Below are positions 3,660 through 18,500 of a stretch of 64,000 nucleotides of DNA, piece by piece. The notes beneath the pieces are model-generated. The model was not told the DNA's origin, did not search any database, and saw only the letters and a program-made list of their open reading frames with translations. This stretch comes from a virus, in the IMG/VR virus record IMGVR_UViG_3300042453_002790, positions 1 to 64,000 of that record. One strand, written 5' to 3'. A program made the position numbers and the translations under genes. The first letter of the stretch is position 1; every line of letters starts with the position of its first letter.

Positions 3660-3660
3660 A

Positions 3661-4494
3661 TTAACCTATGAGATCCAGTGGTGGTAATTCGTATTCATCC
3701 TTGAGTTGTTGCTCAAGTTTTTCAATCTCTGCAACTCCATCATCATAAATTTGTCTACCATTAAGAACAATTCCTCCTGGAAGTTGAACTCCCTGGAACT
3801 TACTCATATTTTGACCCCATTGTTTCTTAATGAGAGCAGTAAGATATTTCTTTAGCCACCAATCGTTATAAAGTTTTGGAGCATCATTTGGATCCAAAAT
3901 TCTATAACAATCAATAATTACATATTCATTTTCTCCAACTTGAGACCAATCTATATCAAGATATAACTTATGATTTTTTTTATTGAATCTAATCTGTGCA
4001 TGAGGGTTCAAAAGAAAATCTAAATCCTCTAGATATCTTTTAACCATCGCATAGTTCAGAAGATCTAATGCACCATAATAGTAAACATCATTTAAGAATA
4101 ACTGGTATTTGATATTAAATAGACCATCCGAAACGGTACTGGAATTAATTTTGAGAATATTATTTACACCAATAATACTATCTGGAAGGGGTAGATAATT
4201 TACTCCCTCAACATAAGTAAGTGAAGTCAAACCTGCACCCACAACATCGGTTGCAGATGTTGTAGCTGATCCTACAGGTCCTGGTTGAGCTAAGGTTGTT
4301 TTAGTTGCTGGGGTAAGTTTATGCTTTAGAAAAACACGATCAATACCATCATAATGACGTTCATGATAATATTGAATCGCATCATCAATTAGGTTATCAA
4401 TTTGATCGTCGTCTACGTTTATTTCTAAAACTGGCTTCCCTAGTTGTTTGAGGCAGTATTCTTTCAACTCTGCTCTACTAGATGGCTGTGCCAT
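3661..4494 (-). CDS. gp13: Neck protein gp13
   Basis: A 277-aa protein (T4 gp13 is 309 aa). Recognised by the N-terminal ELKEYCLKQLGKPVLEINVD and the conserved LIDDAIQYYHERHYDG segment, then an aromatic-rich portal-adaptor fold with LYLDIDWSQVGENEYVIIDC. gp13 joins the portal to gp14 and the tail. A Thr/Ala/Gly loop (about residues 66-92) interrupts the N-terminal half. The ATG follows directly on a U-run of a terminator-like hairpin. The only good Shine-Dalgarno (AGGGG, 9 nt upstream) is in the 3' arm of that hairpin, which overlaps a TATAAATA late promoter. Confidence 0.92.
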   Translation of the reverse strand: MAQPSSRAELKEYCLKQLGKPVLEINVDDDQIDNLIDDAIQYYHERHYDGIDRVFLKHKLTPATKTTLAQPGPVGSATTSATDVVGAGLTSLTYVEGVNYLPLPDSIIGVNNILKINSSTVSDGLFNIKYQLFLNDVYYYGALDLLNYAMVKRYLEDLDFLLNPHAQIRFNKKNHKLYLDIDWSQVGENEYVIIDCYRILDPNDAPKLYNDWWLKKYLTALIKKQWGQNMSKFQGVQLPGGIVLNGRQIYDDGVAEIEKLEQQLKDEYELPPLDLIG

Positions 4495-4531: not shown

Positions 4532-5221
4532 TTAGATGTCTGCGTATCTTCTTATTAATCTATGGAATATGTCATTAACTTTGAATCCAGCTTGACTGAT
4601 TACTTTTTGGAACTCTTCGTAACTTTTTACATTATTGGAAGTTTCTTCATCCAAATTTAATTCATTTAATTCATAACATATTTCTCTTATAAATGGGTCT
4701 TTAATAAAAGATTTTACCCAAAATACGCAAACGTCCCTATGACCTTTGGTTACTTTATTGACTCTATGTGGTACACCTGTTGGATAAACAATTCCAAATC
4801 CTGGATCTAATTTTATTTTAGTTTCTTCATCATTCATAAAGAAACAAAGTTCCCCACCTTCGTATGTAGAAGGATCTGAAAGAAATATAGTGACACTGTA
4901 GTGGCCATTGAATCCAATATCCACATGAGTATTGTAATATCCCCCTTCTTCAGTTCTAGTAACTAAAACATCTTCTATTTTTTTGGGAAAACAGAAATGT
5001 GAAAATTTTTTATTAGTGTCAATTGAGTTATAAACATTTTTTGAAATCTTTTCCTTTATGAAAGGATTCACAAGTTCTTTGTTATTTTTTGTTTGTGGGT
5101 CTCCATAATAAGTTTTTAAACCAGTTTCCCAATCACCATCTACCGAAAGATCTAAAAATTTTTTAGTTTCTTTGAGTTGTTCTGTATCTAAAAAATTTAT
5201 GATTACATAGTCATTTTTCAT
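4532..5221 (-). CDS. 2OG-Fe(II) oxygenase, PKHD-type (HxD)
   Basis: A 229-aa protein from ATG 5221; an in-frame TTG two codons upstream is a less likely start. It has the double-stranded beta-helix of 2-oxoglutarate/Fe(II) dioxygenases: HVD (H99, D101) in YYNTHVDIGFNGHYSVTIFL, the third iron ligand H152 in GVPHRVNKV, and R162 in GHRDVCVFW as likely 2OG anchor. The pattern resembles PiuC/PKHD-type hydroxylases. It would use O2 and 2OG to hydroxylate a substrate not deducible from sequence. It lies 2 nt after the halogenase-family gene, suggesting co-expression. All metal ligands are present, so it is probably active. Confidence 0.88.
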   Translation of the reverse strand: MKNDYVIINFLDTEQLKETKKFLDLSVDGDWETGLKTYYGDPQTKNNKELVNPFIKEKISKNVYNSIDTNKKFSHFCFPKKIEDVLVTRTEEGGYYNTHVDIGFNGHYSVTIFLSDPSTYEGGELCFFMNDEETKIKLDPGFGIVYPTGVPHRVNKVTKGHRDVCVFWVKSFIKDPFIREICYELNELNLDEETSNNVKSYEEFQKVISQAGFKVNDIFHRLIRRYADI

Positions 5222-5223
5222 AA

Positions 5224-6777
5224 TCAATCTTGATAGATAGTTTCTTTCAAAAATTCATAATGAGTAGGTAATCCATCGACGTATGATGAAAGAGTATCAT
5301 GGAACATTTTAAATTCTCTATTGATATTTTTAAACTGTTCAATTTCTTCATAAGGAAGTTCACCTGATCCCGGTAAACCTCTACCCACTTTATATGTCGG
5401 CAAATATCCCATGCCGGCAGCAATATAAGGTACGCCTCCATACAAACCATTAAAATTAGATTGTCTAAAGACATTAACTTCAAGTTGTTGAACATCATAA
5501 TCATTGTGATATTCAATAGAAGTTACGTGTTTCCAATAATCAGTGTCTTGTCTCATTGACAATCCATAATGAATTTCAATAAATGATCTGACTCCATCCA
5601 TTGTATAATTCAAGTAAGTATTAAACATAGATTTATCAATACCGGAGACAAATCTATCTCTCCTAATTAAAGTTTTAACTAATCTGAAAATATTATCGTG
5701 TGTAGTCAATAACCCAGTGGACTCTAAAGGTTCAATAAAACCATAAGAAAGTCCTATACCCAATACATTTTTTACCCAGGCTTTTTCCCTTTTGCCATGA
5801 CGAATCGAAATTTCTTTCATCTCCAAATCGTCAGGAACATTCTTTTTGGTCTTTTTCAAATGATTGCGAAACTCAATTTCTGCTTGATCTCTGGACACAA
5901 ATTTACTTGAATAAACATATCCAGAACCAATTCTACTCCACAATGGAATATTCCATACCCACCCATTTTCAATTGCAGTGCAATTAGTAGTATTCTCCAT
6001 TTCTTCATTTGGATTAGAATATGGAATTTTGGTAGCAAGAGCCCTATCATTCATCAAAGTATCTCCAAAAGAGATGAACTTTGAACCCATTTTTTCTTCT
6101 AACAATAAGGATTTGAATCCCGTACAATCAATAAAAAGATCTGCGGTTAATTTTTGACCAGATTCCGTTAAAATATATTCAATTTCCCCATCTTCTTTTT
6201 GAGAAATATCAACAACATCTTCCAAAATATGAGTCATTCCGGAAGGCAAACAAATATTATTTTTAAGATAAATTCCAAATTTTGTCGCATCTAAATGATA
6301 TGCAGTATCTTTTTCAAAAAAGAAATTTGGAATACTATTGTCTTCATTTTTTGTTAATTTATTTTTTTCGGATAGATAAGAAATTGGATTATAAAATTTG
6401 GCAAATTTATCAAAGGTGTGATATTCCGGATCTAGTTGTCGCAGAATTGGCCAACCATCCAATCCCCTTTGCATACGTTCTGCGGAATGATGCCCAAATG
6501 GATATTGAAATACGGTATTTAGCTCTCTAAAATCAGTAAATTTGATAGAAACCTTATAAGTTGCATCACACTCTTTCATCCACTGATCATCACTTAATCC
6601 AATAAGATGTAAGTAACTGTTAAATTGACCTAAAGTGGATTCCCCCACTCCCATTGTTTTTATATCTTTAGATTCAATAAGAGTTACATCCATATCTGGA
6701 AAATTCTTACATAAAGCAGCAGCTGTCATCCATCCAGAACTACCACCACCCACAATAACAATTTTGTTGATTCTCAT
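5224..6777 (-). CDS. Flavin-dependent tryptophan-halogenase-family protein
   Basis: A 517-aa protein, the usual length for the PrnA/RebH family. The ATG at 6777 has a GGAG ribosome site; an upstream in-frame TTG (6789) is rejected. Visible features: N-terminal FAD-binding IVIVGGGSSGWMTAAAL; a Lys in DATYKVSIKF at the place of the catalytic lysine (K79 in PrnA); LFIDCTGFKSLL; the family motif GWVWNIPLWSR; and SYGFIEPLESTG. Family enzymes use FADH2, O2 and halide to make a hypohalous acid/chloramine that halogenates tryptophan or other aromatics; some phage members may do other flavin chemistry. No flavin reductase is seen in the window. It is followed 2 nt later by an oxygenase gene and preceded by a DUF6065-like gene. 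Confidence 0.9.
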   Translation of the reverse strand: MRINKIVIVGGGSSGWMTAAALCKNFPDMDVTLIESKDIKTMGVGESTLGQFNSYLHLIGLSDDQWMKECDATYKVSIKFTDFRELNTVFQYPFGHHSAERMQRGLDGWPILRQLDPEYHTFDKFAKFYNPISYLSEKNKLTKNEDNSIPNFFFEKDTAYHLDATKFGIYLKNNICLPSGMTHILEDVVDISQKEDGEIEYILTESGQKLTADLFIDCTGFKSLLLEEKMGSKFISFGDTLMNDRALATKIPYSNPNEEMENTTNCTAIENGWVWNIPLWSRIGSGYVYSSKFVSRDQAEIEFRNHLKKTKKNVPDDLEMKEISIRHGKREKAWVKNVLGIGLSYGFIEPLESTGLLTTHDNIFRLVKTLIRRDRFVSGIDKSMFNTYLNYTMDGVRSFIEIHYGLSMRQDTDYWKHVTSIEYHNDYDVQQLEVNVFRQSNFNGLYGGVPYIAAGMGYLPTYKVGRGLPGSGELPYEEIEQFKNINREFKMFHDTLSSYVDGLPTHYEFLKETIYQD

Positions 6778-6789
6778 GATAATCTCCAA

Positions 6790-7617
6790 TTACTTATAAA
6801 AATTGTTTAAACGTTTTCTGAACTTATTATAAATGGTGTCAGTAAACCAAGAAATTGAACCATAATAATTATCTCTATGTATCTCAGATAATTTTTCCTT
6901 AGATAAAAAGTTAATTTCGTGATTAAAGGATGTTCTCTTGAAGGGTATTATCAATGCAAGAGGTGTGTCTTTTAATATTACTTGTTTTTTCTGGTCATAA
7001 ATTTCTGGAGATTCTTGAATTGCATAATTGAATTCAAAAAACCATTTTAAATGAATTGGAGTAATGTCTGGATGAACAACTGCAGATACAGAAGTAAAAT
7101 TTTTGTTCCTATTCCAATATGGATCTGTGATTAAAACAGAAACACCAGGACTTGTTTTAATCCACCATGGACTTGATACTTTATGGAACATTCCCATTTT
7201 GGGTTTTTGTTCATAAGACATTCCTTGGAATTGATTAAATCTATGAACACTATAATTTATTTCGGGAGTTTCTAAAGCGGACTCAAACCTCATTTCACCA
7301 TTAATCATCCGAAAACACATGTCAGTCCAGGCTGGTAATATGTAACCAGTTTTTAAATAATCAACAATTCCTGGACAATGATGTACTGTACTATCTTTAA
7401 TTAAGCTATATGGATTTTCTCCAGCAGCTAATGAACTTCTATTTCCAAGAGGATTCAGATTCATTATTGGAGCAAAAGGACATTTTGATTTTCCAGAAGA
7501 GGGTTTTTTACTTTTTAAAAACCACTCTGGAAATTGTTTATATGCTGGATATACTTCGGGTATTCCTTTTGCTTGATCCGAAGCACAAAATTGAATAATA
7601 TTTTTCTTTTTGAACAT
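6790..7617 (-). CDS. DUF6065-like protein, copy A
   Basis: A 275-aa protein from ATG 7617, preceded by GGTGA; the frame extends to a GTG at 7650. I do not know a function. The sequence pattern (HCPG near residue 115, a long YILPAWTD stretch, SSPWWIKTSPGVSVLITDP, then VILKDTPLALIIPFKR) resembles the uncharacterised DUF6065-type family. It shares this layout with the gene at 10517-11302, so the two are divergent paralogs. It is 12 nt upstream of the halogenase-family gene in the same direction, so a joint pathway is plausible. The divergent spacer to the next gene is AT-rich. Confidence 0.7.
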   Translation of the reverse strand: MFKKKNIIQFCASDQAKGIPEVYPAYKQFPEWFLKSKKPSSGKSKCPFAPIMNLNPLGNRSSLAAGENPYSLIKDSTVHHCPGIVDYLKTGYILPAWTDMCFRMINGEMRFESALETPEINYSVHRFNQFQGMSYEQKPKMGMFHKVSSPWWIKTSPGVSVLITDPYWNRNKNFTSVSAVVHPDITPIHLKWFFEFNYAIQESPEIYDQKKQVILKDTPLALIIPFKRTSFNHEINFLSKEKLSEIHRDNYYGSISWFTDTIYNKFRKRLNNFYK

Positions 7618-7669
7618 AAATTCACCAAAATGATAATTTGAAATTGTCACTATATAATTTAACTGTTAA

Positions 7670-7675
7670 TATAAT
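7670..7675 (+). promoter_or_regulatory. Possible -10 box for the reversed oxygenase gene
   Basis: TATAAT lies 13 nt upstream of the plus-strand ATG at 7689, in a 71-bp AT-rich spacer between divergent genes. No clear -35 is seen, so this is tentative. No late octamer is present for this gene. Confidence 0.35.
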
Positions 7676-7688
7676 ACCTTATTAATTT

Positions 7689-8291
7689 ATGTTAGTAACT
7701 TGGCCTTCCCCTTTTATTTTTTGGACTGAGGTAGAAAACCATCAAGAAATAAAAAAAGAATTGAAAGATAAAATTTTAGAAGAAAGTAAAGATTTTAAGT
7801 ATTATAACTCTCCATTAAAGGATAGAAAAATAACGGAAAATAAATGGTATTGTGAAGTTATTACTAGTTATTTTCACAGAAAAGAAATAGAAAAATTTTT
7901 TACTGAAAAAATAATTACATCTATTGTAGAAAATCCGTTAGAAGAATTATTTAAGAATAAAAGTTTATTTCCTAATAAACCTAAAGATATAATTATACCC
8001 GAAATTTGGTTTAATGTATATAAACCTGGATATTCTCAAGAACTACATGCTCATGGTGGAGCTGTTTTATCGGGAATTTATTTACTGGAACTAAATGAAC
8101 CAAATACTACAATGTTTTTTAACAACAACTCAAGATATGAATATATGAAAAGTGATGTTGGAAGTGTTTTCCCAACATCACACATTGAAGAGGGTAATGT
8201 AATATTTTTCCCTTCAGAAGTACCTCATTCTGTTAATAAATGCACTAGAGATAGAATAACTATATCTTTTAACTTACTATTAGATTATTAA
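7689..8291 (+). CDS. 2OG-Fe(II) oxygenase, HxH type, reversed orientation
   Basis: A 200-aa protein on the strand opposite to nearly all other genes. The C-terminal half has the TIGR02466-like pattern: WFNVYKPGYSQELHAHGG with H120 and H122, then SGIYLLEL, H180 in FFPSEVPHSV, and basic R187/R189 before ITISFNLLL. This matches a dioxygenase jelly-roll with iron ligands and a 2OG-binding arginine; the substrate is unknown. The N-terminal 100 residues are Lys-rich and unassigned. Its stop overlaps the stop of the convergent downstream gene through a shared palindromic TTAA. It is low in GC, like its neighbours. Confidence 0.8.
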   Translation: MLVTWPSPFIFWTEVENHQEIKKELKDKILEESKDFKYYNSPLKDRKITENKWYCEVITSYFHRKEIEKFFTEKIITSIVENPLEELFKNKSLFPNKPKDIIIPEIWFNVYKPGYSQELHAHGGAVLSGIYLLELNEPNTTMFFNNNSRYEYMKSDVGSVFPTSHIEEGNVIFFPSEVPHSVNKCTRDRITISFNLLLDY

Positions 8292-8629
8292 ACAGGTTTT
8301 GTCCCATCTAGAGCGGGGGTCTCTGGAATTAAATCTTGAGCAGTGCTCACTAACATTTTAGTTCTTTCCAATTCTTCTTCCATCATTTGAGCAGCAGATT
8401 TAATACTTCCCTCATCTACTAAATTTTTGAAAATAACTTCTTTATCTGCAGGAATAGAGGTTACAGTTGGATCTGCAATCATCTCTTTAATTTTTAGATC
8501 GGCTACTTCGTGAATGGTATTTCTGCAGCGAAGTTTTACCATCTCTTGAAACCAGTCATCTGGGTCTACTGCAATATGAGCTAAAGCAGCATATTCCAAA
8601 TCAGTTAATTCTACACTTAGAGTTACCAT
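8288..8629 (-). CDS. Small conserved-type hypothetical protein (113 aa)
   Basis: An acidic, largely helical 113-aa protein. The N-terminal segment MVTLSVELTDLEYAALAHIA and the middle KLRCRNTIHEVADLKIKEMI are of a kind seen in small cyanophage genes near tail-fibre clusters. No enzymatic motif is seen. It has its own late-promoter octamer and sits between enzyme and adhesin genes. It might be a fibre chaperone or accessory; this is not shown by the sequence. Confidence 0.7.
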   Translation of the reverse strand: MVTLSVELTDLEYAALAHIAVDPDDWFQEMVKLRCRNTIHEVADLKIKEMIADPTVTSIPADKEVIFKNLVDEGSIKSAAQMMEEELERTKMLVSTAQDLIPETPALDGTKPV

Positions 8630-8654
8630 TGTTCTTAACTATGAATTTTAATAA

Positions 8655-8662
8655 TATTTATA
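8655..8662 (-). promoter_or_regulatory. Late promoter TATAAATA
   Basis: A perfect TATAAATA on the minus strand, 25 nt upstream of the ATG at 8629. Confidence 0.7.
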
Positions 8663-8672
8663 TGATTATTGG

Positions 8673-9260
8673 TTATGGACAAAGACGCCCATAAAAATTA
8701 AAATGTCCCATATAAACTCTCTGATTTCCGCAGTTAAAATATGGTTGAGGGGATACGTATTGTCCTTGTGATAAGGATATTAAATTTTCCATGTTTATTC
8801 CATGAGCATAACTTCCATGGGAAGGATGATTAAACATCGAATGTCCATGTCTACCGTTATTAAAATTTAATCCACCATTAACACCAAAATTTGCATGAGT
8901 ATAATGATATGTATTACCATCATCTAGATAATACATTGTCATTCCAAATTGATAATACCCTGTTACGGGAGCAAAATATCTACCATTAGTAGTATCAAAT
9001 CCAAAACTACCAGCACCTCTTTGGTTTACGGACCATCTACCACCGGTAGAAAATCCCCAGTTTCCCATTTCTCTCCACTGGTTACATCCAATTTGCCCAG
9101 CATATCTCCATTCGTCCAAATTGCAAGACGCGGAAAACATTGGATACTGGGTTCTTCTTCCAGTGGTTTGACTTACTTCTTGTACAAAATTATTATTTGA
9201 AAAAAATTCAATACTTGTTGTGTCTGAAGTTATATTATTGGAACCAATAATAATAGACAT
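8673..9260 (-). CDS. C1q-like adhesin-type protein, copy 1 of 3
   Basis: A 195-aa protein. Its C-terminal 130 residues show the C1q/TNF-like jelly-roll signature: GRYFAPVTGYYQFGMTMYYL, then YHYTHANFGVNG, a Gly/Asn/His-rich loop, and LSQGQYVSPQPYFNCGNQ. The N-terminus MSIIIGSNNITSDTT is a short beta segment shared with the two following paralogs. Such globular heads occur at tips of phage fibres and bind receptors, usually as trimers. No signal peptide, no enzymatic motif. A late octamer (285-292 within the 9200s) precedes it. Most likely a virion surface decoration or receptor-binding tip; direct evidence is lacking. Confidence 0.75.
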   Translation of the reverse strand: MSIIIGSNNITSDTTSIEFFSNNNFVQEVSQTTGRRTQYPMFSASCNLDEWRYAGQIGCNQWREMGNWGFSTGGRWSVNQRGAGSFGFDTTNGRYFAPVTGYYQFGMTMYYLDDGNTYHYTHANFGVNGGLNFNNGRHGHSMFNHPSHGSYAHGINMENLISLSQGQYVSPQPYFNCGNQRVYMGHFNFYGRLCP

Positions 9261-9284
9261 GGTATACTAAACTCCTATTATTGA

Positions 9285-9292
9285 TATTTATT
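9285..9292 (-). promoter_or_regulatory. Late promoter AATAAATA
   Basis: AATAAATA on the minus strand, 24 nt before the ATG at 9260. One mismatch to the T4 late consensus at the first position. It overlaps the end of the upstream paralog. Confidence 0.55.
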
Positions 9293-9863
9293 AACCCAAT
9301 AAAGCTCCAGCAAACATTGTATAAGAAGCCAATATTCTTGAACTATTAGCGTTCCAATATGGTCTAACAACACAATACTCACCTTGATTCAGTTGCATAG
9401 TACACGAAACTACAATACCATCTTCATGATTGTATGGAGTAGCGTGCATGTAGATATTGTGTGGTTGTCTTCCATTATTCCAACCATATCCAGAATTTTT
9501 AGTAAAATGTAAGTGCATATAACTGCTTGTGCTGTTATTATCATTATATGCATAAGCTGAAAAATAAAAATAGTATGTTCCTGTCACAGGAGCAAAATAT
9601 CTACCATTGGAATTCATTCCAAATGATCCCGCTCCCTGTTGATTCCAAGTCCAACCTACAGTTCCATTGATTTCTGGGTTAGCTCCCTGACCAAATTGAT
9701 CTCTATATCTCCAGTCACCAACAGTTCCACTTGCACAAAATGCAGGAGTTCTATCTGTAATTCTTTGACCTGTTGTAAAATAATACAAACTTCGGATATT
9801 GTTTGGTCTAATATCCAAATCCGTATTACTTACAATACTATTTGGTCCGATTGTAATAGGCAT
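9291..9863 (-). CDS. C1q-like adhesin-type protein, copy 2 of 3
   Basis: A 190-aa paralog of its two neighbours. It shows the same layout: MPITIGPNSIVSNTD at the N-terminus, GAGSFGMNSNGRYFAPVTGT, YYFYFSAYAYNDNN, NNGRQPHNIYMHATP, LNQGEYCVVRPYWNAN. The N-terminal MPITIGPNSI segment is also nearly identical to that of the Trp-rich gene at 14363-14920, suggesting a shared virion-docking tag on two adhesin families. It lies 4 nt after copy 3 (biologically upstream), so it is probably co-transcribed. Confidence 0.75.
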   Translation of the reverse strand: MPITIGPNSIVSNTDLDIRPNNIRSLYYFTTGQRITDRTPAFCASGTVGDWRYRDQFGQGANPEINGTVGWTWNQQGAGSFGMNSNGRYFAPVTGTYYFYFSAYAYNDNNSTSSYMHLHFTKNSGYGWNNGRQPHNIYMHATPYNHEDGIVVSCTMQLNQGEYCVVRPYWNANSSRILASYTMFAGALLG

Positions 9864-9867
9864 AGTT

Positions 9868-10467
9868 TTAACTAATTAGATGTCCGCAAAAGAAACTATG
9901 ATCTGTATAAATTCGGGTATTGCCGGAATTGCCCTTATACATATAAGGACTGCAATATTGACCTTCACTTAGATACATAATTGCAGAAATATTTGGCCCA
10001 TGAGCATATGCAGATCCAACTCCTTGAGAATTTCCATGACCATAGATTGTATATGGAACTCTCCCATTATTCCAACTCACATTACTATTAATTCCGAATA
10101 CTAAGTGAGTATAGTTTGCGGTATTGTTGGTATCTTGAAGTTGATAAAAATCACAATGGAAATAATAATATCCACTTTTGGGAGCAAAATATCTACCATT
10201 GGAGTTCATTCCACCACCGGAATTACCTCTTTGATACCAAGTCCAGTTAAAGGGAATTGTAACTCCAATTTCATTCCAAGCATTTGCAGCAAGATATCTC
10301 CAAGCACCACCAGTCCCATGAGCATTAAACCCAGGTTGATTTGGATTTCCACTAGCTAAATTATTTAAAAATGTTTCCACGTTGGTGCTAGTGGAAACAT
10401 TTATAGCCATGTTTCCATCACATCTTATTCTACTTTGGGTTGAACCTTCACCCAGTATAATAGCCAT
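9868..10467 (-). CDS. C1q-like adhesin-type protein, copy 3 of 3
   Basis: A 199-aa paralog, first of the tandem triplet in transcription order. It has the same conserved block SNGRYFAPKSGYYYFHCDFY, YTHLVFGINSNVSWNNGR, YLSEGQYCSPYMYKG and a Gly/Asn-rich loop region. The N-terminus (MAIILGEGSTQSRIRCDG) differs from the MxITIG style of other members. Sequence divergence among the three heads with retained framework suggests diversification of binding specificity. A late octamer and an 8-bp AT hairpin lie upstream. Confidence 0.75.
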   Translation of the reverse strand: MAIILGEGSTQSRIRCDGNMAINVSTSTNVETFLNNLASGNPNQPGFNAHGTGGAWRYLAANAWNEIGVTIPFNWTWYQRGNSGGGMNSNGRYFAPKSGYYYFHCDFYQLQDTNNTANYTHLVFGINSNVSWNNGRVPYTIYGHGNSQGVGSAYAHGPNISAIMYLSEGQYCSPYMYKGNSGNTRIYTDHSFFCGHLIS

Positions 10468-10491
10468 AAATTCGATCTATTATTGTAATAT

Positions 10492-10499
10492 TATTTATT
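10492..10499 (-). promoter_or_regulatory. Late promoter AATAAATA
   Basis: AATAAATA on the minus strand, 24 nt upstream of ATG 10467. It forms the loop side of a perfect 8-bp inverted repeat (TTGTAATA / TATTACAA, about 10483-10503). Confidence 0.55.
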
Positions 10500-10516
10500 A
10501 CAATTGATTGTGTAAT

Positions 10517-11302
10517 TTACCATAATCCAAGTTTACTAAATGGACACTTAGATTCTTTTGGTTCATCTTTAATAAAATCCCAAGATTTTTTAGGTAAAAA
10601 TTTCTTTAATATACTATGATTATATGCTTTTCTCATAACATTTTGCGGAATATCCTTTCTTTCTAATCTAAAATTCTCATCATATTTTCTAGAATTTCTA
10701 AATCTTAGGATACCAATTGGGTCTCCTCTTTTTATTATAGTTGGTTCATTAAACTTATAAGCACAAATCGTTGGCCGCATCCATCTACCAACTGGATATT
10801 CTGCACTAACTAATTCAGCTCCAGGAATAGGAATGGTTGTAGGTAGTATTTCAATCCATAAAGTTTTAACTTGTGGTTCTGTCCAGAAAAAATAATGTTG
10901 GTGGAGTTGTCCAATAATTAATCCGTGATATGGAGGTCTTAGTGGTTTGTGTATAACTCCCATAGTACTTGGGTCTTCACCCAACATACTCCTACCAAAT
11001 AAATTCATGTCATTTATAGCAAATCCTTCATCAATATTCATATGAACATAAGTTTCTGGATCTACAACTCCATCCTCTTTTGAGAACTTAACTTCAATAT
11101 TTGATTGAGAAAATATTACAAAAGAATTTTTATAATATTTTTTCCACGCAGGACATTCCCAATATACGTGTTTTTCGTGATGTTCTTTATAGTATGTAAG
11201 ATATGGTTTTATCGGAATAAAAATTTCATCTTCTAGGAGTGGGTGTTCAAACCCCTTTGGTCCCGAATTTTCAATTTTCGGAGCATAGTAAATGGTTCTC
11301 AT
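10517..11302 (-). CDS. DUF6065-like protein, copy B
   Basis: A 261-aa protein. Recognisable by parallel structure to copy A: VYWECPAWKKYYKNSFVIF near residue 47, HQHYFFWTEPQVKTLWIEIL, PVGRWMRPTICAYKF, and IIKRGDPIGILRFRN. It is compact, without membrane segments. A C-terminal CPFSKLGLW mirrors a CPFAP element in copy A. Function is unknown. Both copies lie beside iron oxygenase genes. A CATAAATA late octamer lies in the divergent spacer upstream. Confidence 0.7.
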   Translation of the reverse strand: MRTIYYAPKIENSGPKGFEHPLLEDEIFIPIKPYLTYYKEHHEKHVYWECPAWKKYYKNSFVIFSQSNIEVKFSKEDGVVDPETYVHMNIDEGFAINDMNLFGRSMLGEDPSTMGVIHKPLRPPYHGLIIGQLHQHYFFWTEPQVKTLWIEILPTTIPIPGAELVSAEYPVGRWMRPTICAYKFNEPTIIKRGDPIGILRFRNSRKYDENFRLERKDIPQNVMRKAYNHSILKKFLPKKSWDFIKDEPKESKCPFSKLGLW

Positions 11303-11342
11303 GATTCAAATTTAAAACTATATAATAAAGTGTAATTAAAAT

Positions 11343-11350
11343 TATTTATG
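11343..11350 (-). promoter_or_regulatory. Late promoter CATAAATA
   Basis: CATAAATA on the minus strand, 40 nt upstream of ATG 11302, in the 60-bp spacer to a divergent plus-strand gene. The long leader makes it less certain. Confidence 0.45.
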
Positions 11351-11362
11351 GAGTGAACTTCG

Positions 11363-12031
11363 ATGTATGGTTTGATTAATTTATTTCCTACTCCAATTTA
11401 TAAACAACCAGCGACAGTTAATAATTACGATACTATACAAATAGAAGTTCGTGATTGTTTGAATAAAATCTTAGAAGAAGATGATTTAGAATGTGTGTCG
11501 TATATCTATAAAGATGCTGGAGAAAGAAAAAGAAATAGACCGGAAAGTGGATATTTTGTTTCCGATCAATTAATAGAGAAGTATAATTTAAGAAACTTGG
11601 AAAAAAGAATATATGAAGCTGTAGATCATTATGTTAGACTTACTCAATGGTCAGCATTGAATTCTTCTCCCATATTAAACTCTATAGATAATGCAACTTT
11701 TGAAATAAAAAATTCATGGATCAATATTGCAGAAAAGGGAGTATTTCATGACTATCATGTACATCCACAGTATACAATATCCGGGGTTTACTATTTCAGA
11801 GTAAATGCGGATCAAGGTGGGATACAATTCAGAAACCCTAATATTATGTTGGAAAATTGTCATTTTCCGGAAGGCCCAAGAACCCCACAATCAATAGAAA
11901 TTATTCCTAGAGATGGAGATATAATACTATTTCCTGCTTGGTTAGCTCATAGTACAGTTAAAAATACTACTGATGAGGATAGAGTCAGTGTTGCTTTTAA
12001 TATCGATTTAGTGAACCAAAACCAAAAGTAA
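11363..12031 (+). CDS. 2OG-Fe(II) oxygenase, TIGR02466-like (HxH), reversed
   Basis: A 222-aa protein on the plus strand. It begins MYGLINLFPTPIYK, the typical start of TIGR02466-type proteins. Core: NSWINIAEKGVFHDYHVHPQ with H132 and H134, SGVYYFRVNADQGGIQFRNP, then LFPAWLAHSTVKN (H196) and R207 before VSVAFNIDL. These fit the iron and 2OG ligands of the fold. The last 35 bp overlap the 3' end of the convergent oxygenase gene at 11997-12695. The substrate is unknown. An SD-like GGAG precedes the ATG. Confidence 0.88.
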   Translation: MYGLINLFPTPIYKQPATVNNYDTIQIEVRDCLNKILEEDDLECVSYIYKDAGERKRNRPESGYFVSDQLIEKYNLRNLEKRIYEAVDHYVRLTQWSALNSSPILNSIDNATFEIKNSWINIAEKGVFHDYHVHPQYTISGVYYFRVNADQGGIQFRNPNIMLENCHFPEGPRTPQSIEIIPRDGDIILFPAWLAHSTVKNTTDEDRVSVAFNIDLVNQNQK

Positions 12032-12695
12032 TATTTTCAAATTTTCTAAGTTCTTCAGGAACATCTGGTAATTTATTATTCCTTTTAATTCCGCGTTCTT
12101 CTTGAATTTTTAAATTAATATCACAATCGTTTAGAATATAATTAATAGATAAACTAGTTCTGAGTCCCGTTGAAGGTAATTCTGCTCTGTGCCAAATACA
12201 TGATGGGAAAAATACAATTTTTCCTTGTTTAAAAGGTATTCTGTATTTTTCTACAAATTCTGTTTCTCCTTTGTTAATATCTGGTTCATCATAGAAAACA
12301 GTATCTCCATCATATCCACCAACATAATATATCATAGTCCAAATGTTAGGTACTTCCCAATCTTGATGAACCGATAAGAAAGAATCTGATGGAATAGTAC
12401 CATTTATATGAACTCGATGTACTTGTTCTATAACAGCATCTTTAATAATAGAATTTAATCCCTCTCTACGCCACATCTCATTAAATGTTCTACCAATATT
12501 TGCGATATCATTTATAAATGGTTTTTCTCCAGGTCTACTTATCCATATTGCGAAAAATTTTTCAATATCATTGGGGGAACCTCTTAATCCATATTTCCAC
12601 CTATCGGAATTTAAAATCATTTCATCCCAATATTCCTGCATCCATGTAGGGATAAGATTTTCTACTTCAAATATATAATCCTTATTAAATTTCAT
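11997..12695 (-). CDS. 2OG-Fe(II) oxygenase, HxD type
   Basis: A 232-aa protein. Motif set: H110 and D112 in FLSVHQDWEVPNIWTM, a YYVGGYDGDTVFYDEP strand pair, H169 in FFPSCIWHRAEL, R179 in GLRTSLSINYIL. This is a complete 2-His-1-carboxylate triad plus arginine. The class differs from the HxH enzymes around it. Its start overlaps the end of the upstream oxygenase gene by 11 nt, so the two are coupled. The 3' end runs antisense into the reversed oxygenase gene. Confidence 0.85.
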   Translation of the reverse strand: MKFNKDYIFEVENLIPTWMQEYWDEMILNSDRWKYGLRGSPNDIEKFFAIWISRPGEKPFINDIANIGRTFNEMWRREGLNSIIKDAVIEQVHRVHINGTIPSDSFLSVHQDWEVPNIWTMIYYVGGYDGDTVFYDEPDINKGETEFVEKYRIPFKQGKIVFFPSCIWHRAELPSTGLRTSLSINYILNDCDINLKIQEERGIKRNNKLPDVPEELRKFENITFGFGSLNRY

Positions 12696-13302
12696 CTTTA
12701 TCTACACCTATATTAAAAACCATAGTAATTCTTTCATCATTTATATCTATATTATTTTTTGGAACTCTATGAATAGCCCAAGAATCCCACATTAAAAACA
12801 TTCCTTCATGTGGATGTATTGTTACAGTTCCATCCTCTTCGTAATTAAAAATATTTTCTTCTTTTACCTTTTTCTCAAATACGGTATTAAAAATAGAATC
12901 TTTTGTTCCTTTAAATTGTATTGGTGAAGATCCTTTTGGTACTTGTAGATAAATTAATCCCGAATATATTGCACCAGGGTGAGAATGTGCATCGTGTTTG
13001 TCACCGAACTTCATGGAACTTGTAAAAATAGAAGTCCACAATTTATAGGAAGGTTTTAAATTATATCCCGAATTCTCGTATAAAATTTTACTCTTTTCTA
13101 AAAGAATATCAACAAAAAACTTTAATTCTGGTAGTTTCGATAGACCCTCATCTAAAGAATATGTATTTTTATATCCCCATTCATTAGTTAACAGAGAGTC
13201 ATCTTTTAATATTTTTTTTGAAATAGGTAAAAGTTTATCCGACAAACTTTTGTTATTTTCATAATAAAAAGATAACGAAAATAAATCAAAAAAATGATGC
13301 AT
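12685..13302 (-). CDS. 2OG-Fe(II) oxygenase, TIGR02466-like (HxH)
   Basis: A 205-aa protein. Core motifs: H106 and H108 in KHDAHSHPGAIYSGLIYLQV, H178 in MWDSWAIHRVPKN, R191 in DERITMVFNIG. The order matches the genes at 7689 and 11363, so the three are divergent family members. It starts 2 nt after the stop of the small gene at 13305 and is followed by another oxygenase in overlapping frame. The substrate is unknown. The N-terminal 85 residues are helical and variable, as in the family. Confidence 0.83.
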   Translation of the reverse strand: MHHFFDLFSLSFYYENNKSLSDKLLPISKKILKDDSLLTNEWGYKNTYSLDEGLSKLPELKFFVDILLEKSKILYENSGYNLKPSYKLWTSIFTSSMKFGDKHDAHSHPGAIYSGLIYLQVPKGSSPIQFKGTKDSIFNTVFEKKVKEENIFNYEEDGTVTIHPHEGMFLMWDSWAIHRVPKNNIDINDERITMVFNIGVDKDEI

Positions 13303-13304
13303 AG

Positions 13305-13754
13305 TTACTGATAAGTATCTTTAATTTCTTTTATAGTTGTATAGAAATTACTTTCCTTTGCTTGATCACCAAGTAATCCATTATCTATATCGTGATACAA
13401 CATATCAAGTTGTTCTTTTATTTCTGGATAATGTCTAACCCTTTCTCTCTTTCCTGCGGCTGCATTATATTCCTCCATGTACTCATCGTATTTTGCCTTT
13501 ACTTCTTCAAACGATGGAGCACCTGCTTCCTCAGCACTAACTATATTTAATGGTTCCCCAGTCCATTTATCAATTCCCATCCTTTCAGGTGGAGGATTTA
13601 TTATAGCCCACTTTAATTCTTTATATTCTTCTTCAGTTTCAAAAGTGGAACATCCGCTCCAATCATAACCAGAATCTTTAATCAATTCATTAAGAGCATG
13701 ACCCATTGCTGGAATTCTTAACGAATCAAACTTTAAAGCAGGATCCAATGCCAT
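13305..13754 (-). CDS. Tail-fibre-associated small protein with YPEIKEQLDMLYHD motif
   Basis: A 149-aa acidic protein. The C-terminal part has RVRHYPEIKEQLDMLYHDID followed by a short helix. This is the hallmark of small XkdW-like phage proteins commonly found next to tail fibres. The N-terminal 80 residues contain PPPERMGIDKWTGEPLN and no enzymatic motif. Possible role in fibre assembly; inferred from neighbours only. A GATAAATA octamer and a GGAG ribosome site precede the ATG. Confidence 0.75.
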   Translation of the reverse strand: MALDPALKFDSLRIPAMGHALNELIKDSGYDWSGCSTFETEEEYKELKWAIINPPPERMGIDKWTGEPLNIVSAEEAGAPSFEEVKAKYDEYMEEYNAAAGKRERVRHYPEIKEQLDMLYHDIDNGLLGDQAKESNFYTTIKEIKDTYQ

Positions 13755-13788: not shown

Positions 13789-14352
13789 TTAATACCTAGT
13801 TAGATTATTTGGATTTATGGAAGCAGTATCCATTTCCCAAATTTCTAATTGATTATTATTCCAACCATTTCTTCTAAGATCAGTATCTATAGAACAATTA
13901 ATTCTTGTTGGTCCATTCCAATTTGCATGATAAATTCTGAAAGCATGTTGTTCAGTATTATTAATTGCTGGAGCCCAATAATGACAAATAACACCCCAAT
14001 ATAAATCTCCAACATCATTTTCTAGTGTTGCATGGTGTCCTTGATCGAGAATTCTATTCCAACCAGTAGATGGAGTCCAACGGTATAAAGCTGCTCCGGT
14101 TCCTTGAGCTCCACCGCCTTGATCATCTGCAATTGTCCACCAAGTAACTTTATACCAATTACTTGCTTTTTCTGGAACTCCCATATTAATTTCAAGGTTT
14201 GCGGGAAGTTGCCAACCAGCACCTAAACCAGTTCCACTATTATGATTTACTCCACTAGATGAAGTAAACGCTACTTTTACAATTCCTGGAATATAATTTT
14301 GTGAAGGTCCAGTTGGATATTGTATTCCGTTTCCTGTTATAGTTATTGCCAT
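13789..14352 (-). CDS. Trp-rich adhesin-like protein, copy 1 of 3
   Basis: A 187-aa protein with 11 Trp. The family is not one I can name. Conserved framework across the triplet: LEINMGVPEKASNWYKV, GTGAALYRWTPSTGWNRILD, a His-Ala block, TEQHAFRIYHANW, RINCSIDTDLRRNGWNNN, LEIWEMD, and a C-terminal LTRY. No signal peptide or membrane segment. The N-terminal MAITITGNGIQYPTG resembles the short tags of the other small adhesin genes. It lies 10 nt after copy 2. Probably a virion fibre-tip or decoration protein. Confidence 0.75.
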   Translation of the reverse strand: MAITITGNGIQYPTGPSQNYIPGIVKVAFTSSSGVNHNSGTGLGAGWQLPANLEINMGVPEKASNWYKVTWWTIADDQGGGAQGTGAALYRWTPSTGWNRILDQGHHATLENDVGDLYWGVICHYWAPAINNTEQHAFRIYHANWNGPTRINCSIDTDLRRNGWNNNQLEIWEMDTASINPNNLTRY

Positions 14353-14362
14353 AATTTTTTCC

Positions 14363-14920
14363 TCAAAATCTACTAAGGTTGCCTGTGTTAATTAAATCTC
14401 CATCTATTTCATAGATTTCAAACATATTATTGTTCCATCCATTTCTTCTGAGATCTGCACCGATAGAACAATTAATTCTCATAGCAACGTCTGGATGTCT
14501 TCTACAATACAATCTAAATGCATGTTGTTCTGTTGCATTTAATACTGGGACATACCATATTCCATGAGTACTAGTATAAAAATCTCCACAGTTATTATCA
14601 TAATGAGCGTGCCAACCTTGGTCAAGGATTCTGTTCCATCCAGTAGATGGTGTCCATCTCCATAAAGCCATACCAACACCACCATTTGCACCACCCCAAT
14701 CATCAGAACATGAGTAAAAAGAAACTCTATACCAATTATTTGATCGAGTTGGAACTCCCATATTCAGTTCAGTTCCATTAATAAAATCCCAGTTACCAGA
14801 TTGAATAGATTGATCTGTCGTTGTTGCAGAACAACTATTGTATTTAATAAATCCAGATGGAACCGATTGGACGGAACCATTATTAAATGTTATGCTATTT
14901 GGACCTATCGTTACTGGCAT
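14363..14920 (-). CDS. Trp-rich adhesin-like protein, copy 2 of 3
   Basis: A 185-aa paralog with 9 Trp. Framework: NGTELNMGVPTRSNNWYRVS, DDWGGANGGVGMALWRWTPS, TEQHAFRLYCRRHP, MRINCSIGADLRRNGWNNNM, FEIYEIDG, LSRF. The N-terminus MPVTIGPNSITFNNGS matches the C1q-like copy 2 tag (MPITIGPNSI). The gene starts 3 nt after the stop of copy 3. The most variable parts lie between the conserved blocks, as expected for receptor-binding loops. Confidence 0.75.
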   Translation of the reverse strand: MPVTIGPNSITFNNGSVQSVPSGFIKYNSCSATTTDQSIQSGNWDFINGTELNMGVPTRSNNWYRVSFYSCSDDWGGANGGVGMALWRWTPSTGWNRILDQGWHAHYDNNCGDFYTSTHGIWYVPVLNATEQHAFRLYCRRHPDVAMRINCSIGADLRRNGWNNNMFEIYEIDGDLINTGNLSRF

Positions 14921-14923
14921 GAA

Positions 14924-15523
14924 TTAATACCTCGACATTGTTCCGCTTGTATGTATACCATCACCATCTATTTCCCATACTTCAAAAATATTATTAATCC
15001 AACCATTTCTCAATAAATCATTACCAATACCACAATTAATTCTTACATTACTTGTTCCATAATAATTTGTAACATAAATTCTGAAATAGTGTTCTTGAGT
15101 TGGGAATGATTGGTGTACCGGCACATATCCAAAAATCATTGGGTTTCTATACCAATCAGCCATATTATTATCATAAGATGCATGTCTTCCCATATCCAAA
15201 ACTCTATTCCATCCACTACTTACAGTATATCTCCAAATAGAAAAACCAATTCCTCCATAGTTTCCATCCCAATCATCAACAATTGTTTGATAACAACATC
15301 TATACCAATTAGTTGATTTGGTTGGAACTCCCATATTAATTTCAGTTCCATTAACAAAAGTGTGGCTAGCACCACCAGTTGTTTGGTTGATGGTGCTAGC
15401 ACTAGTAGATCTTATTTTAATTACTGGACTACATCTTGTTTGGGTTGGATTGGACTCGGAACCATAAGGGTTATAAGCAATATTGGAATATTTTATTCCA
15501 GTCCCAGCAATTGATACTGGCAT
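14924..15523 (-). CDS. Trp-rich adhesin-like protein, copy 3 of 3
   Basis: A 199-aa paralog with 7 Trp. Framework: NGTEINMGVPTKSTNWYRCC, DDWDGNYGGIGFSIWRYTVS, GWNRVLDMGRHASYDNNMAD, HYFRIYVTNYYG, VRINCGIGNDLLRNGWINN, FEVWEIDGDG, MSRY. It is first of the triplet in transcription order and begins 4 nt after the end of the 2450-aa tail fibre, so it is part of the fibre operon. This supports a fibre-associated role. Confidence 0.75.
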   Translation of the reverse strand: MPVSIAGTGIKYSNIAYNPYGSESNPTQTRCSPVIKIRSTSASTINQTTGGASHTFVNGTEINMGVPTKSTNWYRCCYQTIVDDWDGNYGGIGFSIWRYTVSSGWNRVLDMGRHASYDNNMADWYRNPMIFGYVPVHQSFPTQEHYFRIYVTNYYGTSNVRINCGIGNDLLRNGWINNIFEVWEIDGDGIHTSGTMSRY

Positions 15524-15527
15524 TTAA

Positions 15528-18500
15528 TTAACCTCCTTTTTTCAAATTTTCTATCGCAGATTTCAATTCATCGATTTGTGTTTGTTGTTCTTTAATTGCC
15601 TCAACGAGAAGAGCGGTTAAATTTTGATATGCAACCGACTTCATAGATTCTTTACCTTCATCAATAGAACCTGGCGCAGGAGCATCTAGTTCATAAACAA
15701 GATCTGGAACTACTAATTCTACTTCTTGTGCAATAAATCCAAGTTGGTGGTCACCACTATCAATTCTGTCAAATTCAACACCACGTAGCTTGAGCGTCTT
15801 TTCAAGTGCATTTTCAATCGTGAAGATGTTTTTCTTAAGTCTAATATCAGAGTTAAATGTACCAGTTCCAGCAAAGGTTACATTACCACCAGAACTCATT
15901 GTCATTCTGTTGTTTCCAGCAGAATCTCTTACAATAAATTCATTACTGTATTGTAAGTATAGATTACTTGAGTGGAATTGAATCTTACCTGCCTTTTCAC
16001 CAGTCCAGCTTCCATAGTTTCCATTAATATCACCACCAGCACCAATATTAAGAGAGTTGGTTACGCCAGCAAATGTAACGGATCCAGTAAATGTTGGAGT
16101 TGTTGTAAGGTTGAATGCAGATCCATTACCAATCAGAATTGCACCATTTGCTGGTAGACCTGTTTGGCCAGTACCACCTCTAGCAATAGGAATTGTTCCA
16201 GTGTGGTTGGCAGAGTTTAGATAATATGCACCGTTTTGAGTACCTAGAGTTGAAGCATCAACGTCACCTGTATTGGAATTCTTAATGCTTACCGCACCAT
16301 CAGTGCCGATTTCGAATGTAGAAGTTTTAAACTTAGCAACACCAGTTGTGGAGAAAAGATCTAGTGTAGAAGCAACTCTATTGGCAGTAATTGTAACTGC
16401 TCCATAATGAGTTGCAAATCCAACACCAAAGTCAGAACTTGAAGCAGTAATGCCAAATGGAGTTGTAGATGCAATTCCAACACTTGTAACAACCTTTCTA
16501 TAAGATGAGTTACCACTTAGGAATGTATCCGAGTTTGCACTACCGGAACCGAGTCTGGAAGGAGAAACTGTACCACTAACAATGTTAGCAGCATCAATAT
16601 CCGCACTAGCAAGTAGTGACCAGTTATCTGGATCAACGGAAGAAGTATTAACTGTATTCTGATATCTTACATTCTGTTTGGTGAATGTAATGGTTCCAGA
16701 TCCTGTTTGTGCAATACCAACTGCGTTAAAAGTAACTCCACTAGCAGAAGAAGTTGCATCAGTTTGAGTTAAGTGTAACGTAAATCCATTCTGAACTACG
16801 GAACCAATATAATAGAAAGCACCAGTATCAACTCCAACTGGAGTATTTCCAGTAACTCGTACAGGATCACCAGTTGTAAATCCGTGATTTACAAAGTGAA
16901 TTGTATCTTTGGTAGTTGAAACACCACATCTTATGAGAGAATGAGTTCCAATTCCACTACCAGATAAATCCTGTCTAGAAACTAGTGAATATGTGGAGTG
17001 AAGTTCAACAGAAGAAAGACCAACTCTCTTAACATAATATGTTGTATTTTCAATTAGACCAGTGATGTTTGTTCCGCCATTTGTTGTATACTTAATGGCA
17101 TCTCCATCCTGGAATGTATGACCAATACCAACAACAATTCTATCATTCGGGAAGTCAACATCTCCACCAGTTTCAATTGTTGTTGGGTCAATATCATATG
17201 AAACATCGAGATTTAATGTTGTGGAAATTCCAACCGCGTTTCCATCTGCGATATAGTCGGCAAGAGCTACGCTACCAGCAAACTTCTGATTATTTGTGAG
17301 CCTGAGATAGAGTCGTGTTTCAACATTGTTGACCTGAACCGTAAAGGCACCTCCACCACTTCTACCTCCAAGATTTGCATCAAGAGCGGTGAGAACATCT
17401 CCACTTTGATAGTAACGACCACCAGTTTTGATATCAACGTTGGTAACGGTTCCAGACCCGCCTACAGTAACCTCAGCAAGCGCAGAAGTACCAATACCTG
17501 TAGAAGATTGTAAGAAACAAGTGTAAATTCCTGGTGTAGTGTAACCGGATCCACCATTTTGGATTGGTGCTCCTAGTAGAACACCCTTAACTAATCCACT
17601 ATTACCATACCCAACATAATTAAAGATTGTTGTTCCGATTCCAACTCCTGTAGGTGGTGCGGTGACAACACCAATTGCACTTGCAGCAAGAGCACTAATA
17701 ACGGAATCTCCATTATTGAATGCGTAATCTCTGGCGTCATCATCAAGAATTAGGTATTGACCTACAACATCTTGAATGAGAACGTATGAGAGTTCTGGTT
17801 CAACAATAGTGTCACCATTTCTAATATCAATTGCAGGGATTTCGTTTACAAGAACTGTTCTACCAGTAGAAACATTTGTTTTTGTATAGTTAACGACTTT
17901 TGGAGGAATTAGATCACCATTAATTTGTCCAGAAGAGTTCAACTGAACAACAGCGTTTGGAACTGCGTTTTGTGATACGGTTTTATCAATGAATGTTCCA
18001 AGTCGGTTAGACATGAAACTTCTAACAGCTAACTGAGTTGAAACTCTCTTATTGAGTGGTCCTCCTAGTTCACCCTCACCGAGGTTGGTATCAGTTGAGA
18101 ATTCCTCAACAGCAACACCACCAGATAGTGATAGACGAATGGAATCAAGTTCACCAATCGATACTTTATTGTTAAAGACGATGTTACCTGTTCTGTTGAA
18201 AGCAGTAATCTGAGAACCAATCTTAAAGTCACCCAGTTCGTTAGTACCAGAAGCATATACACGACCACCAAGTTCAGAAACCTGTTCAGATGATGGATCA
18301 CCTTTACCGCCATTTTGTGGTAGAGCATTATAATCTGTTCCAGAACCAGAGAATTCCCAAGTGTGTGAAGATGAGTTTACAATAGATGGTCTATGTAGAT
18401 TGCACTTATAAGCAACAGGAAGATTACCAATACCCTGAATGACGTTTCCAGTTGTTGTAGAATCAACCTTAAACTCAATTGTTCTGAAGGTAGTAATTCC

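Follow-up and report, generated by a model that had tools for sequence, protein, structure and literature searches.

An island of genes for oxidative enzymes and small adhesin-like proteins was analysed in a stretch of 64,000 nucleotides from a T4-like marine cyanophage (hereafter the window), which makes up most of the 64,750-bp IMG/VR virus record IMGVR_UViG_3300042453_002790. Enzymes of these types and the hypervariable host-recognition region have been described before (PMC8407142, PMC7029224, PMC3037559, PMC9602691, PMC9964418). In marine T4-like myophages the host recognition cluster (HRC) has the same place, from fibre to neck genes, is hypervariable and holds fibres together with enzymes; the available sections of that paper stress glycosyltransferases and do not describe an adhesin-specific pairing with oxygenases or a halogenase (PMC7029224). 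Cyanophages carry expanded sets of 2-oxoglutarate-Fe(II) (2OG) oxygenases (24 copies in S-SCSM1 and 10 in S-CREM1) of the same families, PF13640 and PF13759, with many divergent copies; in the available sections these are treated as auxiliary metabolic genes and no link to adhesin families is made (PMC9602691, PMC9964418). VirX1, a flavin-dependent iodinase from cyanophage Syn10, has a crystal structure (PDB 6qgm; PMC8407142). In the open literature we found no report of the cassette described below as a unit, of an oxygenase-adhesin pairing or of oxidative modification of phage adhesins, so that priority is uncertain.

The island has the layout of an HRC: it is bracketed by a large fibre gene on one side and by gp13 and gp14 (2229–4494) on the other, which agrees with the place between tail fibre and neck genes given in the first-pass annotation. 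It encodes a VirX1-type halogenase (HAL), five 2OG oxygenases (OX1–OX5), the uncharacterised proteins DUFa and DUFb, the small proteins sm113 and sm149 (s149), and two families of probable tip adhesins with three copies each, AD1–3 and AE1–3 (Table 1). HAL belongs to the same family as VirX1 of Syn10 and its motifs are kept. VirX1 itself lies in a cassette that runs from a tip gene through s149, two halogenases and DUFa to a 2OG oxygenase, whereas HAL of the window, an enzyme known from sequence alone, sits with AD and AE tips and has DUFa upstream instead of downstream. The predicted fold of AE2, known from a model, is shared with the TNF-like lectins BC2L-C (N-terminal domain, 2wq4) and PLTL (9ib7), at an identity of ~10%.

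The gene content, a gene order conserved in many phages and the pairing of particular enzyme clades with particular adhesin families were observed directly. Our preferred reading, to which we give a probability of about 0.48, is that such islands are built from host-recognition modules that can be exchanged, and that every module has oxidative enzymes of its own, which probably act on the tip protein. One module would consist of a small family of tip proteins, s149 and the oxidative enzymes dedicated to that family. In the window, AE1–3, sm149, OX5, OX4, OX3 and DUFb would form module A; DUFa, the halogenase and OX1 module B; and AD1–3, sm113 and OX2 module C.

Pairing of OX3 with the AE family

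Among 50,697 phage records, AE was present in 14; these 14, and no others, also held a close ortholog of OX3 (48–50% identity, 198–204 bits; the next best match scored 96 bits). The first-pass annotation had proposed a modification system for phage adhesins and had named, among the findings that would refute it, a lack of genomic association between the enzymes and families of adhesins; for OX3 and AE such an association was found, in one lineage with the two genes unlinked. The 14 records belong to two lineages, Ahtivirus with near-identical relatives and Ronodorvirus, in a family of some 50 genera; the chance of an exact two-lineage coincidence was ~8e-4 in a calculation that ignores phylogeny. 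The genes are unlinked in S-ShM2, S-RIM14 and S-SSM2; in S-ShM2 (Ahtivirus) one of the two is at 43 kb and the other at 165 kb, and OX3 has nrdAB on one side and psbA on the other. In IMG/VR, 23 contigs carried OX3 orthologs (≥48% identity; others were mostly ≤31% over full length), 18 of which also carried AE, while the remaining 5 end before the expected AE place. Control contigs with more distant 2OG oxygenases had AE in 0 of 29 cases. Mapped on a gp13 tree, AE+OX3 requires a minimum of 4 changes and the halogenase a minimum of 7 (one partial row on a long branch was left out of a second tree), and thus these are not simply the genes of one lineage.

The loci returned by an AE-anchored search contained three AE copies, s149, several 2OG oxygenases and DUFb, without a halogenase. 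Close orthologs of OX3 and OX4 occurred only in AE loci (OX4: L101, L102 and L104 in our locus numbering), and those of OX5 mainly there. OX2 orthologs were limited to loci that also hold AD and sm113 (L005–L007, L022), and OX1 orthologs only beside close relatives of HAL (L005–L008, L022, L023). Sullivan et al. 2010 (PMC3037559) proposed for phage 2OG enzymes a part in tuning the signalling of nitrogen or 2-oxoglutarate in infection, 2-oxoglutarate being the NtcA signal; such a role gives no reason to expect an oxygenase clade confined to a single adhesin family, nor many divergent copies clustered behind tips, and we regard it as very improbable for the enzymes studied here.

The VirX1-type halogenase cassette

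VirX1 of Syn10 corresponds to the gene at L002:12004-13596. The order of the cassette is Gly-rich tips (PF21722, Gly_rich_2), s149, one or more halogenases, usually DUFa, and several 2OG oxygenases; it was found in Syn10, S-CREM1, S-RIM44, Sf-FP1, S-WAM1, P-RSM6, P-TIM40 and dozens of IMG/VR contigs. The 97 loci collected were anchored on the halogenase, and their counts therefore show order and adjacency, not frequency across all phages. Homologs of sm149 were present in 60 of these loci, usually just ahead of the halogenase; in P-SSM3 and S-ShM2 they directly follow AE. DUFa was present in 57; in 52 it is the immediate neighbour of the halogenase, on the downstream side in 48 cases and on the upstream side, as in the window, in 4. 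Cyanophage 2OG oxygenases occur throughout the genomes, and clustering was therefore compared with random positions in the same genomes, using positions merged by hand from two scans. In 8 genomes, 31 2OG genes were found within 8 kb of VirX1-type halogenases where 8.2 would be expected (P=5e-5); near other phage halogenases there was no excess (7 against 5.4 expected; 5 genomes, P=0.33).

These data bear on the view that a variable hot spot gathers unrelated auxiliary genes with separate metabolic roles, their association with adhesins being due to hitch-hiking. The fibre-neck region is a known hypervariable island (PMC7029224), and cyanophages carry ~7–20 2OG oxygenases each, spread genome-wide, as this view would have it. 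It is at odds with the conserved order, in particular the adjacency of DUFa to either side of the halogenase, and with an OX3-AE pairing that outlasts both unlinking and the tree changes given above; we consider it improbable.

The halogenase goes with the Gly-rich tips. A query with the Syn10 tip matched 12 isolate records, all 12 of which have a VirX1-type halogenase. A Gly-rich tip profile gave strong matches in 7 of 7 cassette genomes and only in genomes with this halogenase; weaker matches were obtained in S-RIM4 and in S-B64, where the halogenase is unlinked from the tip. The association gave a Fisher value of 1.2e-4 over 19 genomes, which is descriptive only because the genomes are a non-random sample. 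Of the 23 OX3 contigs, 20 (many of them fragments) had no halogenase, and the 3 that carried this type are closely related to the window. The AE loci L101, L102 and L104 lack one, as does P-SSM3; that of S-ShM2 is short and only distantly related. Since most AE genomes have no VirX1-type halogenase, the data do not support halogenation of Trp in AE, and the earlier suggestion that the halogenase acts on Trp-rich neighbours was abandoned as a general rule. It is with the Gly-rich tips, instead, that the VirX1-type halogenase and DUFa go.

Position between fibre and neck was also dropped as a defining feature of the cassette. In five isolates (Syn10, S-CREM1, S-WAM1, P-RSM6 and P-TIM40) the cassette lies >60 kb from gp13, so that it tracks the fibre block and not the neck.

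HAL falls in the Trp-halogenase family, and synthesis of a small molecule has been proposed for PrnA in Syn9 and S-CREM1 (PMC9964418, PMC2984593). A halotryptophan or pyrrolnitrin-like antibiotic, made by the halogenase and decorated by the 2OG oxygenases, would fit that family; among the remaining island genes none was seen that points to a natural-product pathway, the cassette accompanies tip adhesins in most contexts examined, and the active site of VirX1 is large and open with a broad substrate range (PMC8407142). Small-molecule synthesis is therefore a distant candidate.

Several variants of the cassette were observed. L093, L097, L087 and L095 are islands with 3–4 halogenases, some with up to three DUFa copies, and L093 and L097 also have three AD genes with sm113 on the other strand. 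VirX1-type halogenases were present in L037 (354 kb) and L049 (280 kb), hence in jumbo-size phage genomes too. In S-CREM1 the reading frame of a second gene for a Gly-rich tip (OP535465.1, 54494–55291) contains five TAA codons; this is a decayed copy or an error.

Possible targets of the enzymes

Under the module reading, tip proteins would have side chains hydroxylated by the 2OG oxygenases or halogenated by the halogenase in the course of infection, and this modification would tune their stability or their specificity for a receptor. AE would be the target of OX3, and Gly-rich tips, in most phages, that of the halogenase. The pairing of enzymes with tips suggests, without proving it, that phages chemically tailor either the proteins by which they recognise a host or the host surface to which these proteins bind.

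The second of these options is a strong rival, to which we nevertheless assign a rather low likelihood: the module would pair an adhesin with modifiers of its receptor (a glycan, lipid or surface protein), for instance for a superinfection block or for virion release, and the same adhesin-enzyme pairing would be expected. OX3 lies on the strand opposite to AE in most loci, the S-ShM2 copy is in the nrd-psbA region, a relative of DUFb in S-T4 is part of a sugar/lipopolysaccharide-type gene cluster, and pelagiphage host-recognition clusters hold glycosyltransferases that are proposed to alter the host surface (PMC7029224). On the other hand, no glycan-modifying genes were recognised in the island of the window, and HAL, DUFa and most of the 2OG oxygenases are encoded on the strand of the fibre gene, between tip and neck genes. 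Flavin halogenases, moreover, have aromatic rings as their targets, and glycans rarely contain these.

Several findings weigh against enzymes dedicated to the tips. In the 100 bp upstream of 27 OX3 orthologs no late-promoter motif was present in any case (82% for gp13, 1.8% background), which fits an earlier, host-directed role, and OX2 and OX3 both lie outside the late operon. Physical linkage could explain the OX3-AE pairing except in the S-ShM2 lineage. The pairing of halogenase and Gly-rich tip is not absolute, as Sf-CH11 and the window fragment have HAL without a Gly-rich tip match; DUFa is found away from fibres too, and 2OG oxygenases are spread over cyanophage genomes as noted above. 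Tip modification and the enzyme substrates are inferred from sequence and context.

A wider form of the module reading, namely that phages run an oxidative maturation of receptor-binding tips in which each adhesin family inherits its own hydroxylases or halogenase as a module, is tentative and on balance doubtful. If true, host recognition would depend on hydroxylated or halogenated virion residues that are invisible in the sequence, and tip maturation would supply the natural substrate of VirX1. Host-range prediction from sequence only would be incomplete if tips are modified, and virion proteomes would miss modified peptides unless those mass shifts are searched. Cyanophage 2OG oxygenases and VirX1 have been filed as auxiliary metabolic genes, and no assigned natural substrate was found for either. 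The pairings give testable hypotheses on enzyme and partner, OX3 with AE and VirX1 with Gly-rich tips, in isolated phages (Syn9, Syn10, S-ShM2 and P-SSM3).

The enzymes of the island

The first-pass annotation listed one halogenase-family flavoenzyme and five 2OG oxygenases, two of the HxD and three of the HxH type, with intact catalytic motifs, and the searches bear this out. HAL has VirX1 (6qgm) as its best PDB match and is 47–48% identical to Syn10 VirX1. It carries the GxGxxG (GGGSSG at 14), WxWxIP (W277-V-W-N-I-P) and FxxPxxSxG (F351-I-E-P-L-E-S-T-G) motifs and the catalytic Lys, K79, which is invariant in the halogenase alignment; by these motifs it is a VirX1-type flavin halogenase. Its ratio of nonsynonymous to synonymous substitution rates (dN/dS), against a close relative, was 0.050, and every island gene tested was under purifying selection (0.02–0.16).

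His motifs are kept in all five oxygenases, as HxD in OX1 and OX4 and as HxH in OX2, OX3 and OX5. HxH is the normal pattern for PF13759, shared by the solved members 3bvc and 2rg4. OX1 scored 140 bits against a cut-off of 143 for NF003974, and OX4, in which the triad is kept, 23.5 bits against a Pfam cut-off of 27. Across 50 related open reading frames (ORFs), including the weakest 2OG calls, the first His, the distal His and the Arg were invariant or nearly so, and most matched a known 2OG Pfam family or DUF6445. The latter (PF20043) matched 15 of the 50 cassette ORFs scanned that keep the 2OG triad (L065, L035, L027 and others), and DUF6445 is therefore probably a 2OG oxygenase family. PHROG 274, labelled 'DNA endonuclease V', holds 2OG oxygenases (OX4 and several from cyanophage annotations), so that its label is misleading.

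DUFa and DUFb had been taken for DUF6065-like paralogs, which the searches did not confirm. The PF19541 (DUF6065) profile gave no match at E≤10 in the window record or in three cassette genomes, and one of 8 DUFa family members tested against it reached E=0.089. BLAST detected no similarity between DUFa and DUFb, and an iterated search of a small set gave E=9e-4 only. An AF2 model of DUFa (pLDDT 72, pTM 0.70) had dUTPase and dCTP deaminase as best PDB matches in Foldseek (E 4e-3, query-length TM ~0.27, identity ≤17%), and the protein may, with modest confidence, be said to resemble that fold; the S-CREM1 annotation for it is triphosphate nucleotidohydrolase. The DUFa alignment was too diverse for scanning the whole collection. 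Relatives with 22–27% identity occur in haloarchaeal tailed viruses (L112 and others), the HRTV-5 copy being near ribonucleotide reductase; such relatives, and those in metabolic regions, weaken the case for DUFa as a dedicated halogenase partner.

Probable tip proteins and layout of the island

The AF2 model of AE2 (pLDDT 79.5, pTM 0.74) matched in Foldseek the TNF-like lectins BC2L-C and PLTL, and also Pgp3, with a probability of 1.0 and E ~1e-4; AE2 is thus modelled as a TNF/C1q jelly-roll, and the AE family is predicted to have a TNF-like lectin fold. The C1q likeness of AD is weak by sequence. AE and AD are probably virion tip adhesins, to judge by where they lie behind the fibre gene and, in the case of AD1 and AD3, by late-promoter motifs. 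The small protein sm149 is possibly an adhesin chaperone. AD was rejected as a broad enzyme partner, a direct scan giving 4 loci only, three of them near relatives. Adjacent proteins with 7–11 Trp, as reported by the first-pass annotation, do exist, but they are AE1–3, outside its span of 4532–13302; inside it, AD1–3 carry 4–5 Trp each.

On the minus strand the order of transcription is AE3, AE2, AE1, sm149, OX5, OX4, DUFb, AD3, AD2, AD1, sm113, DUFa, HAL, OX1. Across the whole window, the minus strand has 14 copies of the late-promoter motif ATAAATA and the plus strand a single one. The description of the island as part of the virion operon fits these minus-strand genes but not OX2 and OX3, whose orientation makes co-transcription with that operon impossible.

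Table 1. Coordinates of the island genes and their boundaries in the window.
Feature	Position	Strand	Evidence
gp13 neck protein, island boundary	3661..4494	-	PHROG 211 head-tail adaptor Ad2, 2e-48
OX1, 2OG-Fe(II) oxygenase, HxD (H101/D103), PiuC/YbiX (PKHD-type hydroxylase)-like	4532..5227	-	PF13640 2.1e-9
HAL, flavin-dependent halogenase, VirX1 type	5224..6789	-	PF04820 2.5e-105; 6qgm VirX1 496 bits
DUFa, uncharacterised halogenase neighbour, predicted dUTPase-like fold	6790..7650	-	PHROG 7084
OX2, 2OG oxygenase, PF13759 type (HxH)	7689..8291	+	PF13759 3.2e-12
sm113, small protein travelling with AD	8288..8629	-	Recurrent company of AD
AD1, C1q-like small protein, probable tip adhesin	8673..9260	-	Paralog of AD2/AD3; ATAAATA upstream
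AD2, C1q-like small protein	9291..9863	-	Pfam C1q E=0.012, below cut-off
AD3, C1q-like small protein	9868..10467	-	PHROG 15750 7e-10; paralog of AD1/AD2
DUFb, uncharacterised	10517..11302	-	PHROG 17480; in loci with three AE copies; late-promoter motif upstream
OX3, 2OG oxygenase, PF13759/TIGR02466 type (HxH)	11363..12031	+	PF13759 7.8e-22; TIGR02466 above cut-off
OX4, 2OG oxygenase, HxD (H110/D112)	11997..12695	-	PF13640 1.1e-4, below cut-off; PHROG 274 8e-21
OX5, 2OG oxygenase, PF13759 type (HxH)	12685..13302	-	PF13759 1.4e-17
sm149, conserved gene between tip adhesin and enzyme genes	13305..13754	-	Homologs in 60/97 halogenase loci
AE1, Trp-rich (11 W), predicted TNF-like lectin fold, probable receptor-binding tip	13789..14352	-	Member of the AE family; fold from AE2 model
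AE2, Trp-rich (9 W), modelled copy	14363..14920	-	AF2 and Foldseek
AE3, Trp-rich (7 W)	14924..15523	-	As AE1
Large tail-fibre protein, 2450 aa, upstream of tips	15528..22880	-	Mtd_N and Peptidase_S74 domains

Other features of the window

Besides the genes of the island, gp6, gp8, gp13, gp14, gp15 and the small terminase were recognised in the window record. Between 60000 and 64000 the G+C content rises from ~0.33 to 0.45, there are no long ORFs, and cyanophage matches are confined to short stretches (best S-SCSM2R); this is probably a region of small genes, although it may be a join artefact. The head closure protein gp14 (2229–3659) has 476 aa, with a C-terminal extension beyond the first ~256 residues that resembles repeats found in proteins of baseplates and fibres, among them a 4601-aa protein encoded in the window itself.

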